This document shows, piece by piece, positions 17,765 through 23,517 of a stretch of 64,000 bases of DNA. Position 1 is the first letter of the stretch; the number at the start of each line of letters is the position of its first letter. The stretch covers positions 270,307 through 334,306 of the forward strand of contig PTET01000001.1 of NCBI GenBank assembly GCA_004359435.1. The letters run 5' to 3'. The DNA comes from Flavobacteriaceae bacterium (lineage in GTDB: Bacteria > Bacteroidota > Bacteroidia > Flavobacteriales > Weeksellaceae). Position numbers and translations under genes: made by a program. Below the pieces are notes generated by a model, which was given only the letters and a program-made list of their open reading frames with translations, was not told the DNA's origin and ran no database searches.

Positions 17765-20700
17765 TTATCCTACGATATTGATGATTTTTCCAGGAACAAT
17801 GATGATTTTTTTGGGTGAATTTCCTCCCAGTTGTTTGAGGGTACGCTCGTCTTGAAGCACAATTTCTTCTATTTCTTCTTTGGACAAATCCAGTGAAAGA
17901 TTGAGTGTAAAACGGGTTTTTCCGTTGAAAGAAACGGGATATTCTCTCTGTTTTTCTACCAAATATTTTTCTTCAAATTTGGGAAAAGAAACCCGAGAGA
18001 TGGATTCTTTGTGTCCAAGTTGAAACCACAATTCTTCTGCGATGTGTGGTGCATAAGGGGAAATCAGAACCGCAAGAGGCTCCAAGATGGCTCTGTGGTG
18101 GCATCTTTGCTGTTGCAATTCGTTCACACAAATCATAAACTGGGCAACCGAGGTGTTGAAAGAGAAATTCTCTATGTCTTCGGTGACTTTTTTGATGGTT
18201 TTGTGTAGGGTTTTGTACATCTCAGCTGTTGGTTCTTCACCTGAAACAATGCTTCCGTTTTGGTCGAAATACAATCTCCACAATTTTTTTAGGAATCCAA
18301 AAACCCCAGAAATCCCAGCGGTGTTCCATGGTTTGGCCTGTTCTAGCGGCCCCAAAAACATTTCGTACAAACGCAAGGTGTCGGCTCCATAGTCATTGCA
18401 AATGTCGTCTGGGTTTACCACATTGTATTTGGATTTGGACATTTTTTCTACCTCTCTTCCTACGATGTATTTTCCGTCTTCTAAGATGAACTCCGCATTT
18501 TTGTAATCGGAGTACAAAGGATGAGCTTTGAATTTTTCGATATTCAACTCATTGTTTACCTCGTTGATGCAGGATAAGTCTACGTGGATGGGATGTACGT
18601 TTTTTCCCTCTATGAGTCCTTTTGAATAAAGGGTTTTGGAGTCTTCACTTCTATATACAAAAGCACTCATTCCCAATATCATCCCTTGATTGATGAGTTT
18701 TTTGAACGGTTCTTCTGTTGGTGCAAAACCTCTGTCTTTCAGAAACTTATTCCAAAAGCGAGAATAGAGCAAATGTCCTGTTGCATGTTCAGACCCACCG
18801 ATGTACAAATCCACATTTTGCCAATACTGTAACGCGTCTTGGCTGGCGAATTCCTCTGGATTTTTTGCATCCATGTATCGCATCCAGTACCAAGAAGAGC
18901 CAGCCCAACCCGGCATGGTGTTCAGTTCCAATGGAAAAATTGTTTCCTCCCCCAACCCCTCCGAAGGAGGGGAGATAAGTTCGTTTGAGACAACTTTGTT
19001 ATTCACTGTATCCCATGCCCAATTCGTGGCATTTCCAAGAGGAGGTTGTCCATCTTCGGTAGGCAAATATTTTTCTACCTCCGGCAAAACGATGGGCAAA
19101 TGTTTCACATCAATCATTTGTGGAAGTCCATCTACATAATACACGGGAAAAGGTTCTCCCCAGTATCTTTGACGTGAAAATACCGCATCGCGAAGGCGAT
19201 AATTCACTTTGGCTTTTCCTGCCCCCAATTTTTCCAGTTCTTCTATGGCTTTTTTCGTTCCAGATTTGTAGTCCAATCCGTTTAGAAAATCCGAATTTAC
19301 CAGCTCGAATCCCTCTTTTGAGGCAAAGGCACAATCCTCCCCCAACCCCTCCGAAGGAGGGGAGCTAAGGCTAAATATATTTTTTATAGGAATACCAAAA
19401 TGCTTGGCAAAAGCGTAATCTCTTTCGTCTCCACAGGGCACCGCCATTACCGCTCCTGTTCCATATCCAGCCAGTACATAGTCTCCAATCCAAATGGGAA
19501 TGGCATTTCCAGTAAAGGGATGTTTTGCATAGGCGCCTGTAAATACGCCAGAGATGGTTTTTACATCAGCCATTCTTTCTCTTTCGGAGCGTTTTGCAGT
19601 GGCTTCAATATAGTCGTTCACCGCTTGTTTTTGCTCAGGGCTTGTAATCTCTGCCACCAATTCGTGCTCAGGGGCTAGAGTCATAAAGGTTACTCCAAAA
19701 ATGGTGTCTGGGCGGGTGGTGAAGACTTCAATCCCCTCCCCAACCCTCCCCGAAGGGGAGGGAGTAGAAGAAACTGGAAGAGATTCTCTTGACTTCAATT
19801 CAAGCTCTATTTTATTTAAAACTTCTGATATTTTTTTGTTTACTTCTTCATTAGAAAAACGAATTACTTTAAAATCGTGTTTTTGTTCTAATTCTAAAGT
19901 TCTTTCCTTATCAAGTTCAATTTGTTCTTTTGAATTGTGATATTCACCATCTACTTCAATTATCAATCTTTTTTCCAAACAAACAAAATCAACAATATAT
20001 CTTCCAATCAAATGCTGTCTTCTAAAACGGACATCCAATCTTTCTCTACGTAAATTATCCCAGAGAATGGCTTCCGACAATGTTGGTTCTTTTCGCATTT
20101 TCTTAGCATGAAGAAGTAAATCTTTAGCTATTGAAGTGTCACCTGTTAAATATTTTGGATCCGATATTAAAGAAGTTTCTTCTCCCCCTCCTTGGGAGGG
20201 GGTTGGGGTGAGGATCTCAAACCTTACACTAGCCCCAACACTTTTCCCAATCCAGTTTTCTTGAGAATCTTTCAGAGACTGGGTCCAATCCAGTTCTTTG
20301 AGGCCATCCAATAATCTTTGGGCATAGGCGGAAATTCGCATCGACCATTGGGTCATTTTTTTTCGAACCACGGGATGTCCGCCACGCTCGGAAACTCCGT
20401 TTACAATTTCGTCATTGGCAAGCACGGTTCCAAGGGCTGGACACCAGTTTACCTCTGTTTCTGCCAAATAAGTGAGTCTGTATTGCAGCAGAATTTTTTG
20501 TTTTTCCCCTTCAGAGAACCTGTTCCACTGTTCTGCGGAAAAAATCTCTATGTTTGGGTCGCAGGCAGCATTTACTTGGGCATTTCCTTGTTTTTCAAAA
20601 ATGGAAACCAAAGTTGTTATGTCTTCTGCTTTGTCTGTGTCCTTATTATACCATGAGGCAAAAAGCTGAACAAAAATCCACTGGGTATGTTTGTAATAGT

Positions 20701-21088
20701 CTGGACTGGAGGTTCTTACTTCCTTTTCCCAATCAAAAGAAAAACCGATTTTGTCTAGCTGTTCTCTGTATCTGGCAATGTTTTCCGCTGTGGTTTTTTC
20801 TGGATGTTGCCCTGTTTGGATGGCATATTGTTCTGCAGGAAGCCCGAAAGAATCATATCCCATGGGGTGCAAAACATTGAATCCTTGGTGTCTTTTGTAT
20901 CTGGCAACAATGTCCGAGGCGATGTATCCTAGAGGATGTCCCACATGCAAACCCGCTCCAGAGGGGTAAGGGAACATGTCTAGCACATAATATTTGGGCA
21001 AACCAGACCCAGAGAGGGTTTCAAAAGTTTGGTTTTCTTTCCAGTGTTTTTGCCATTTGGCTTCGATGTCTGTGGGACGATATTCCAT
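17765..21088 (-). CDS. leuS: Leucine--tRNA ligase with in-frame repeat and DUF559 insertions (1107 aa)
   Basis: MEYRPTDIEAKWQKHWKEN...PYPSGAGLHVGHPLGYIASDI (HIGH-like), KMSKSKYNVVNPDD (KMSKS), FTTRPDTIFGVTFM editing motif. Length is inflated by insertions at SPPSEGLGEE (x2) and LTPTPSQGGGEE...DUF559...TPSPSGRVGEG. Confidence 0.95.
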   Translation of the reverse strand: MEYRPTDIEAKWQKHWKENQTFETLSGSGLPKYYVLDMFPYPSGAGLHVGHPLGYIASDIVARYKRHQGFNVLHPMGYDSFGLPAEQYAIQTGQHPEKTTAENIARYREQLDKIGFSFDWEKEVRTSSPDYYKHTQWIFVQLFASWYNKDTDKAEDITTLVSIFEKQGNAQVNAACDPNIEIFSAEQWNRFSEGEKQKILLQYRLTYLAETEVNWCPALGTVLANDEIVNGVSERGGHPVVRKKMTQWSMRISAYAQRLLDGLKELDWTQSLKDSQENWIGKSVGASVRFEILTPTPSQGGGEETSLISDPKYLTGDTSIAKDLLLHAKKMRKEPTLSEAILWDNLRRERLDVRFRRQHLIGRYIVDFVCLEKRLIIEVDGEYHNSKEQIELDKERTLELEQKHDFKVIRFSNEEVNKKISEVLNKIELELKSRESLPVSSTPSPSGRVGEGIEVFTTRPDTIFGVTFMTLAPEHELVAEITSPEQKQAVNDYIEATAKRSERERMADVKTISGVFTGAYAKHPFTGNAIPIWIGDYVLAGYGTGAVMAVPCGDERDYAFAKHFGIPIKNIFSLSSPPSEGLGEDCAFASKEGFELVNSDFLNGLDYKSGTKKAIEELEKLGAGKAKVNYRLRDAVFSRQRYWGEPFPVYYVDGLPQMIDVKHLPIVLPEVEKYLPTEDGQPPLGNATNWAWDTVNNKVVSNELISPPSEGLGEETIFPLELNTMPGWAGSSWYWMRYMDAKNPEEFASQDALQYWQNVDLYIGGSEHATGHLLYSRFWNKFLKDRGFAPTEEPFKKLINQGMILGMSAFVYRSEDSKTLYSKGLIEGKNVHPIHVDLSCINEVNNELNIEKFKAHPLYSDYKNAEFILEDGKYIVGREVEKMSKSKYNVVNPDDICNDYGADTLRLYEMFLGPLEQAKPWNTAGISGVFGFLKKLWRLYFDQNGSIVSGEEPTAEMYKTLHKTIKKVTEDIENFSFNTSVAQFMICVNELQQQRCHHRAILEPLAVLISPYAPHIAEELWFQLGHKESISRVSFPKFEEKYLVEKQREYPVSFNGKTRFTLNLSLDLSKEEIEEIVLQDERTLKQLGGNSPKKIIIVPGKIINIVG
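18945..18979 (+). repeat. GC-rich palindromic repeat copy R1 (inside leuS)
   Basis: tcctcccccaacccctccgaaggaggggagataag; core CCCCTCC-GAA-GGAGGGG. Confidence 0.9.
19335..19369 (+). repeat. GC-rich palindromic repeat copy R2 (inside leuS)
   Basis: tcctcccccaacccctccgaaggaggggagctaag; 34/35 identical to R1, same orientation and reading frame. Confidence 0.9.
19732..19770 (+). repeat. GC-rich palindromic repeat copy R3 (left boundary of DUF559 insertion)
   Basis: tcccctccccaaccctccccgaaggggagggagtagaag; core CCCTCCCC-GAA-GGGGAGGG. Confidence 0.88.
20182..20215 (-). repeat. GC-rich palindromic repeat copy R4 (right boundary of DUF559 insertion, inverted)
   Basis: ctccccctccttgggagggggttggggtgagga; reverse complement tcctcaccccaaccccctcccaaggaggggg matches the R1/R2 pattern, i.e. 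inverted relative to R3. Confidence 0.85.
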
Positions 21089-22312: not shown

Positions 22313-22416
22313 GGAATAAAAATTGATTGAATCTGAAAATTAATAAATTTCAAACCAAAGACAAACAAAGAGTATAAAATAATTTGTTTTGTATCTTTAC
22401 CGAAAATAACACAAAA

Positions 22417-23517
22417 ATGGCTTTGCAAAAATTAGAGGTACAACAATTGTTGGAAGAATTAGAGCTCACCCCAATGGTGAAAAATATTCAAATTTTTGAC
22501 AATGAAGTTCAGTTAGACTTAGAAGTAAAGTCACCAGCGTTGCATCAGAAGAAAAAGTTTGAGGAGGCCATTTCTCAGGCTTTTCAAGATAAGTTTGGCC
22601 CTGAAGTTTCAACCAAATTGCACTTTGTGGTAGAAGCCAAAGAGAGTCTACCTCCCATTGCTGGAAAAGCCATCCCAGGTGTTAAGCATATTATCGCGAT
22701 TTCTTCTGGAAAAGGAGGAGTGGGAAAATCTACCGTTACCTCTAATTTGGCGGTGAGCCTACAAAAAATGGGCTTTAAAGTAGGGGTTTTGGATGCGGAT
22801 ATTCACGGACCTTCTATGCCTATTATGTTCGATATCGAAGATCAAAAGCCAAGGCAAATTCATATTGAGGGTAAATCTAAAATGCAACCTATTGAGAGTT
22901 ATGGCATCAAAATTTTGTCCATAGGATTTTTTACCGACGCAAATCAAGCCATTGTTTGGAGAGGCCCTATGGCTGGAAAAGCTTTGCATCAAATGATTCA
23001 TGACGCCCACTGGGGAGAACTAGATTTCTTGCTTTTGGACCTCCCTCCAGGAACCGGAGATATTCACCTTTCATTGGTGCAACAAATACCAATTACCGCA
23101 ACGGTAATTGTTTCAACACCTCAAAACGTGGCCATGGCCGATGTAAAAAGAGGGGTAAACATGTTTTCTCTGGATAGCATCAATGTTCCTATCCTTGGGA
23201 TTATCGAAAACATGGCCTATTTTACACCCCTTGAACTTCCTCAGAACAAGTATTATATTTTCGGTGAAAGCGGGGCCAAACATATGGCAGGGCAATTAAA
23301 TATTCCATTTTTGGGAGAAATCCCATTGGTACAAGGCATTCGAGAGTCAAGCGATGTGGGTAGGCCAATTTGTTTGCAAGAAGAAAATCCCGTTACTTTG
23401 GCTTATCATCAAATCACCCAAAACATGATTGAAAGTTTGGGAAAAAGAAATAAAAATTTGCCTCCAACCGAGGTTGTTAGAATTACCACCATGGCTGGTT
23501 GTTCGCCTAAGAAATAA
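22417..23517 (+). CDS. Mrp/NBP35 family Fe-S carrier ATPase
   Basis: IIAISSGKGGVGKSTVTSNLAVSL, DADIHGPSMP, LLLDLPPGTGDIHLSL. Start at 22417. Confidence 0.94.
   Translation: MALQKLEVQQLLEELELTPMVKNIQIFDNEVQLDLEVKSPALHQKKKFEEAISQAFQDKFGPEVSTKLHFVVEAKESLPPIAGKAIPGVKHIIAISSGKGGVGKSTVTSNLAVSLQKMGFKVGVLDADIHGPSMPIMFDIEDQKPRQIHIEGKSKMQPIESYGIKILSIGFFTDANQAIVWRGPMAGKALHQMIHDAHWGELDFLLLDLPPGTGDIHLSLVQQIPITATVIVSTPQNVAMADVKRGVNMFSLDSINVPILGIIENMAYFTPLELPQNKYYIFGESGAKHMAGQLNIPFLGEIPLVQGIRESSDVGRPICLQEENPVTLAYHQITQNMIESLGKRNKNLPPTEVVRITTMAGCSPKK

Follow-up and report, generated by a model that had tools for sequence, protein, structure and literature searches.

Homing nucleases have been held to need self-splicing introns or inteins in order to enter conserved coding sequence (review PMC3943268). 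Among the EDxHD/Vsr homing endonucleases, I-Bth0305I (PDB 3r3p) lies within a group I intron that is self-splicing, and it has additional parts for DNA binding. Inteins with homing nucleases lie in frame inside host enzymes, are thought to be spread by the nuclease and excise themselves from the protein. Palindromes in frame in protein genes occur as the Rickettsia palindromic elements (RPEs), which to our knowledge carry no nuclease, and in the REP/RAYT family (REPINs) palindromes, often in inverted pairs, are tied to a DNA-processing enzyme, the Y1 HUH transposase. Homing genes are also found fused in frame to fungal mitochondrial rps3, without an intron. EDxHD homing nucleases in introns, in-frame inteins, in-frame RPEs and REPs with a partner enzyme are thus parts that are known separately.

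The window (the whole stretch of 64,000 nucleotides that was analysed) contains a leucyl-tRNA synthetase (LeuRS) gene, leuS, into which a DUF559 nuclease with palindromic ends is inserted in frame. The insert has the catalytic fold and the active-site region in common with I-Bth0305I, and its transfer into the same site independently of the host gene is likewise that of EDxHD/Vsr homing endonucleases. It differs in being without an intron or intein, the nuclease staying in the host protein, and in being without an added DNA-binding domain of the kind found in I-Bth0305I. An intron-borne element was rejected, as no Rfam intron family was matched even at E up to 1 and the frame reads through without a stop. 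An intein was rejected as well. No intein model (Hint or splicing domain) was among the Pfam and NCBIfam hits, the splice-junction residues (an initial Cys, Ser or Thr and a final His-Asn) are missing from an insert that starts ILTPT and ends GEG before I, and the insert is read through where inteins excise themselves. As with RPEs, palindromes lie in frame in protein genes (four in leuS, others in aroA and in leuS of other species), but in the present case a nuclease is enclosed by many of the copies, and the repeat has a Bacteroidota sequence. The tie of palindromes, often inverted pairs, to a DNA-processing enzyme is shared with REP/RAYT, although the enzyme here is DUF559. Whereas the fungal rps3 fusions are terminal and organellar, DUF559 inserts are internal, read through and bounded by palindromes. 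The NGO0050 endonuclease-like protein (PDB 3hrl) and E. coli PRK09767 belong to the same DUF559 family, but are small separate proteins whose function is not established.

The best explanation, to which a rough probability of 55% is attached, is a nuclease-plus-palindrome element that lies in frame in its host enzyme and moves between alleles by homing. The chances are about even that it stands for an undescribed class of selfish element, in which unspliced in-frame homing nucleases have palindromic ends that are at once DNA termini and flexible linkers sparing the host, in around a dozen conserved enzymes of Bacteroidota. A literature search, with subscription papers mostly outside its scope, gave no account of palindrome-flanked DUF559 or of DUF559 within leuS. 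The element appears to dispense with splicing and to be tolerated as an extra domain and, if this is true, it would be a third way for selfish DNA to inhabit essential genes. It would also give a plausible function to DUF559, a family named for having none, and would account for the odd additional domains of LeuRS, IleRS, MetH, RecG and further enzymes of Bacteroidota. Whether the nuclease spreads its own host allele is a directly testable question.

The leuS gene and the anatomy of its insert

The features of the gene, all on the minus strand, are as follows.

17765 to 21088 (-): leuS, leucyl-tRNA synthetase, 1107 aa (ORF; Pfam; NCBIfam TIGR00396; the single full-length match in its own genome)
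19733 to 20215 (-): in-frame mobile insert of 483 bp = 161 codons, LeuRS aa 292-452, boundaries uncertain by ~1 codon (alignment with insert-less LeuRS and with metagenome contig L031)
20177 to 20215 (-): palindromic end on the 5' side of the insert on the leuS strand, encoding the linker ILTPTPSQGGGEE; hairpin CCCCCTCC-CAA-GGAGGGGG (inverted repeat I1; hairpin; frame)
19731 to 19769 (-): palindromic end on the 3' side of the insert, encoding the linker STPSPSGRVGEG; hairpin CCCTCCCC-TTC-GGGGAGGG (inverted repeat I1; hairpin; frame)
19796 to 20116 (-): DUF559 (PF04480) nuclease domain, LeuRS aa 325-431, active site VDF...IEVDGEYH intact (Pfam E=4e-31; alignment; match to I-Bth0305I by profile and fold)
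19335 to 19369 (-): third in-frame palindrome of the same family, without a nuclease, encoding LSSPPSEGLGED, aa 574-585 (direct repeat D1; frame; leuS of F. columnare, L185, has a palindrome at the corresponding place)
18945 to 18979 (-): fourth in-frame palindrome, 97% identical to the third, without a nuclease, encoding LISPPSEGLGEE, aa 704-715 (repeats, alignment, frame)

A preliminary description of this DNA had proposed that a DUF559/Vsr-type nuclease with inverted palindromic ends was inserted in frame in leuS and that the host enzyme was read through. Each of these points was borne out. Alignment with insert-less LeuRS delimits the 161 codons, the frame of 1107 codons is open throughout, and the catalytic and editing domains of LeuRS recognised by Pfam flank the DUF559 domain, whose identity is upheld by Pfam, profile and fold matches. 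The two ends of the insert are inverted repeats of each other (39 nt, 79% complementary), and within each arm 19 nt make up a perfect GC-rich hairpin. A stand-alone nuclease made from an internal Met, also suggested, found no such backing, since this Met is not conserved and is missing in 10 of 46 active LeuRS copies and in most other hosts. The fourth palindrome is missing from relatives, which read NQLID-NKTIFPLE at that point.

The window's own genome (a 1.65-Mb assembly, 83% complete) yielded a single DUF559 and a single full-length leuS, and therefore the working LeuRS must be the chimera; a second, insert-free copy of leuS was looked for in this 83%-complete assembly and none was found. 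By pattern search the exact sequence CCCCTCCNNNGGAGGGG has three copies in the 1.65-Mb genome, all within leuS, and the reversed control pattern has none, from which it follows that the palindromes are not due to chance. The idea of a repeat-associated element thus stood as regards the palindromes at the ends of the insert, but the repeat is almost confined to leuS in its own genome. The only other clear palindromes of the same shape there (L179, G000 contig 1, 437968-438111) are an intergenic, REPIN-like inverted pair 127 bp apart.

Across every palindrome in the window, four or more of the six frames are open. AlphaFold modelling of the complete chimera gave pLDDT values under 50 for the palindrome-encoded joints (aa 296-313 and 438-450) and again for aa 577-582, inside the product of the third palindrome, with DUF559 folding at a pLDDT of ~70-85. 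On the strength of these predictions the best reading is that the palindromic ends double as flexible protein linkers.

The history of the gene as a whole is a separate matter. The window LeuRS is up to 83% identical to that of Flavobacterium and groups away from the LeuRS sequences of its genome's family. By contrast, Mrp/ParA, a neighbouring gene (22384-23517), lies at much the same distance from Flavobacterium and from that family. A Flavobacterium-like donor may have supplied the entire leuS.

The nuclease domain and its other hosts

The match to the DUF559 profile covers positions 4-108 of 109 and scores 107.5 bits against a curated cut-off of 20.6. A profile built from 39 diverse copies matches both PDB 3hrl (E=9e-31) and 3r3p, the catalytic domain of I-Bth0305I (E=2.3e-6), and the same two structures are the best fold matches of the predicted domain (pLDDT 89), I-Bth0305I ranking second in Foldseek with a probability of 1.00 and TM 0.68/0.79. 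The homing-endonuclease model of PADLOC (HEase) is also matched (E=3e-6). Profile and predicted fold thus mark DUF559 as kin of the EDxHD/Vsr-type homing nucleases. The invariant columns of the 39 copies include E19, W23, Q38, D47, E58, D60, G61, H64, D73 and R76, and dN/dS is 0.05-0.11 in active pairs where it is measurable, values that indicate purifying selection on the insert.

The layout of palindrome, DUF559 and palindrome was found in frame in ~12 enzyme families across Bacteroidota, in some with decayed ends. Besides LeuRS the hosts are IleRS, MetH, RecG, HisD, HemD, chorismate synthase (AroC) and a UvrD-type helicase, together with HsdR, HsdS, an Eco57I/DUF7814-type methylase and a Type ISP enzyme. 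MetH has two insertion sites, one before the B12-binding domain and one inside the activation domain. A search for DUF559 copies without flanking repeats, put forward earlier as a check, showed that the inserts in LeuRS, HsdR, HsdS, RecG, MetH and Type ISP carry palindromic ends, many of them intact. Solo DUF559 genes have palindromes in their flanks too; those with an N-terminal MWKGAP-type motif (L004-L015, L128) are flanked by CCCTTTAGGG-type palindromes, a type distinct from that of the in-protein copies.

Distribution and transfer of the insert

The nearest LeuRS relatives are without the insert, contrary to the possibility, raised in the preliminary description, that all close relatives share it as an ordinary domain. 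They have instead a short loop of variable length at the entry to the CP1 editing domain (VRFQL-QDNNQF-IEVFTTRPDT in L071, VTFNL-KNHDAV-IEVFTTRPDT in L070), so that the insert replaces a few loop residues and splits no invariant motif. The loop at the empty site of L089 contains a short direct repeat, TTCCAACTTCCAACTTCCAACT, which suggests that it tolerates unrelated insertions.

The distribution of the insert is patchy. DUF559 was present at the same site in 67 of the 105 LeuRS examined, a sample biased towards carriers because one search pattern was derived from the insert, and the carriers belong to Flavobacteriaceae, the window's own family, Sphingobacteriaceae and Chitinophagaceae. Strict end hairpins are absent from all 21 LeuRS copies whose active site is broken, whereas 28 of the 46 active copies keep at least one; the 21 are mostly one clade and the joint loss of hairpins and active site amounts to ~4 independent events. 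In LeuRS of the Polaribacter/Tenacibaculum type the IEVDG-H site of the domain is lost and the end hairpins are gone, and two genomes of this type contain one palindrome and none.

The DUF559 of the window insert is 88% identical to that of L031 and at most 62% identical to any other. Between the two LeuRS cores identity is 81%, and each has closer matches among insert-less Flavobacterium alleles, the window core at up to 83% and that of L031 at up to 91%. In a comparison restricted to the palindrome-free part of the insert, of the codons that specify the same amino acid, 76/110 (69%) were identical within the insert, as against 341/714 (48%) for the core; no other among the 2188 pairs gave a stronger result (p=2e-5). 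At four-fold sites the blocks of the core are 20-50% identical, and the insert taken as a whole is 79% identical. On the DUF559 domain alone the four-fold-site test gave p=4.6e-4, which fails correction over all 1538 pairs, whereas the codon test, which has more sites, survives. In quick trees of the LeuRS core the window core (L001) is sister to the insert-less L071 (SH-aLRT 97) and seven changes of presence are needed, at least six of them forced by well-supported branches. A clade of the window and L031 cores was rejected by the AU test (p=0.0047). No clear co-conversion of the flanks was seen in this pair.

A recG pair from Flavobacterium-type genomes (L211/L212) has identical codons at 102/104 positions in the insert and 498/619 in the host (p=2.4e-7), with a plateau of 98-100% DNA identity over the insert and near flanks that falls to ~93% farther out, a pattern that points to a more recent transfer than that of the window and L031. 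An IleRS pair (L188/L190) shows a like excess in the insert (p=5e-4). There is no such excess in the control pairs L033/L213, L209/L215 and L125/L126, which means that the insert does not simply evolve slowly. From the discordant leuS, recG and ileS pairs it follows that the insert is transferred independently of the gene that hosts it and arrives at the same site, and its description as a mobile element compatible with coding sequence is upheld.

The tree of 126 DUF559 domains tracks the host gene, with 19 label changes against 55 for shuffled labels, and the sole visible mixture across genes is of HsdS with HsdR. DUF559 copies thus form lineages specific to host and site, which resembles homing more closely than it does free hopping of the REP or MITE kind. 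Possible sources of the insert in phages and plasmids gave only distant matches, to two phages at ~34% and to 27 plasmid records, all below 60%.

Homing, palindromes and the rival explanations

Transfer into the same site independently of the host, combined with a conserved homing-type nuclease, makes homing without splicing the simplest account. In the proposed mechanism the DUF559 nuclease would be translated within LeuRS and never spliced out. The GC-rich palindromic ends, readable in most frames, would encode linkers rich in Pro, Ser and Gly, and it is proposed that because these are flexible the host enzyme still folds and works, so that the chimeric LeuRS would be fully active. The EDxHD/Vsr-type nuclease would cut an empty leuS allele, and the break, when repaired with the filled allele as template, would gain a copy of the insert at the same site. 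Once the site was fixed selection on cutting would lapse, and nuclease and palindromes would decay together, as in the LeuRS of Polaribacter/Tenacibaculum. As the insertion site is a short variable loop, persistence of the site may be partly a matter of tolerance. A caveat is that homing alone does not account for the palindromes that occur without any nuclease, both in frame and between genes.

It is these palindromes that give weight to the main rival, in which DUF559, in the manner of REP/RAYT, would nick or cut its own palindromes and copy either the palindromes or whole palindrome-nuclease-palindrome units, in-frame copies being the survivors of selection. Palindromes flank both inserted and solo DUF559 genes, and their number tracks the presence of DUF559. 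The median per genome of palindromes of the same shape was 11 in 148 genomes of the family whose DUF559 match is strong, compared with 1 in 150 others that lack such a match, an association that was also significant within three genera, kinship being accounted for to the genus level only. Many of the palindromes of F. rivuli are intergenic inverted pairs 60-130 bp apart, like the single pair in the window's own genome, and nuclease-free palindromes lie in frame in leuS, in aroA and in other genes. Within F. rivuli these include aroA (EPSP synthase, named from its translation; L147) and a frame of 858 aa (L140). The canonical form of the REP/RAYT family, to which the layout had been likened, was not found, as Y1 genes are present but adjoin other palindromes, e.g. 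GTCGCGGAGCGAC. None of the 20 loci with Y1 (PF01797) genes that were read shows the insert's palindrome type alongside, and the Y1 transposases are therefore not obvious movers of the leuS family; with other palindromes beside their Y1 genes, such genomes give the two the look of parallel systems. Copying by DUF559 would explain the dispersed palindromes better than homing does and may be what spreads those without a nuclease. It explains less well than homing that DUF559 copies keep to lineages specific to the host gene without scatter, the transfers observed enter the same site, and neither a target duplication nor an excision footprint has been established. As an account of the insert it is considered doubtful.

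Two further explanations are each considered improbable. An ordinary accessory domain of LeuRS, vertically inherited with many losses and perhaps active in defence or in binding tRNA or DNA, would agree with the same site being filled in four families, with purifying selection and with the conservation of the Polaribacter-type domain even though its active site is dead, as if it had been domesticated there. Already disfavoured, it is opposed by the conflicting histories of insert and host gene in the leuS, recG and ileS pairs, by the weak correlation of insert and core identity (rho=0.27) and by the occurrence of the same DUF559-palindrome unit in ~12 unrelated enzymes. Plain homologous recombination of the whole insert after transformation or transduction, the nuclease playing no part, would draw on the host sequence on both sides of the insert, on the short shoulders of high identity in the recG pair and on the existence of naturally competent relatives, but it leaves unexplained both the invariant active-site residues in 39 diverse copies and the entry into ~12 unrelated genes. 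Homing remains the preferred reading.

Two minor observations concern the wider family of repeats. Rfam whalefall-1 (RF01762), found in whale-fall metagenomes only, weakly matches the window at 20182-20215 and 19334-19365, as well as L164 and L169. The assignment was not adopted, as the matches of the palindromes fall below the gathering score, and whalefall-1 may itself belong to the repeat family of these palindromes instead of being a non-coding RNA. Y1 (PF01797) transposase-like domains were also found in frame in very long proteins, of 1245 aa (L243, G003 contig 133) and 1270 aa (L237, G165), the former with in-frame palindromes CAAGGGGATTAATCCCCTTG (KGINPL) surrounding the Y1-like domain, and DUF559 may not be the only domain to live in frame.
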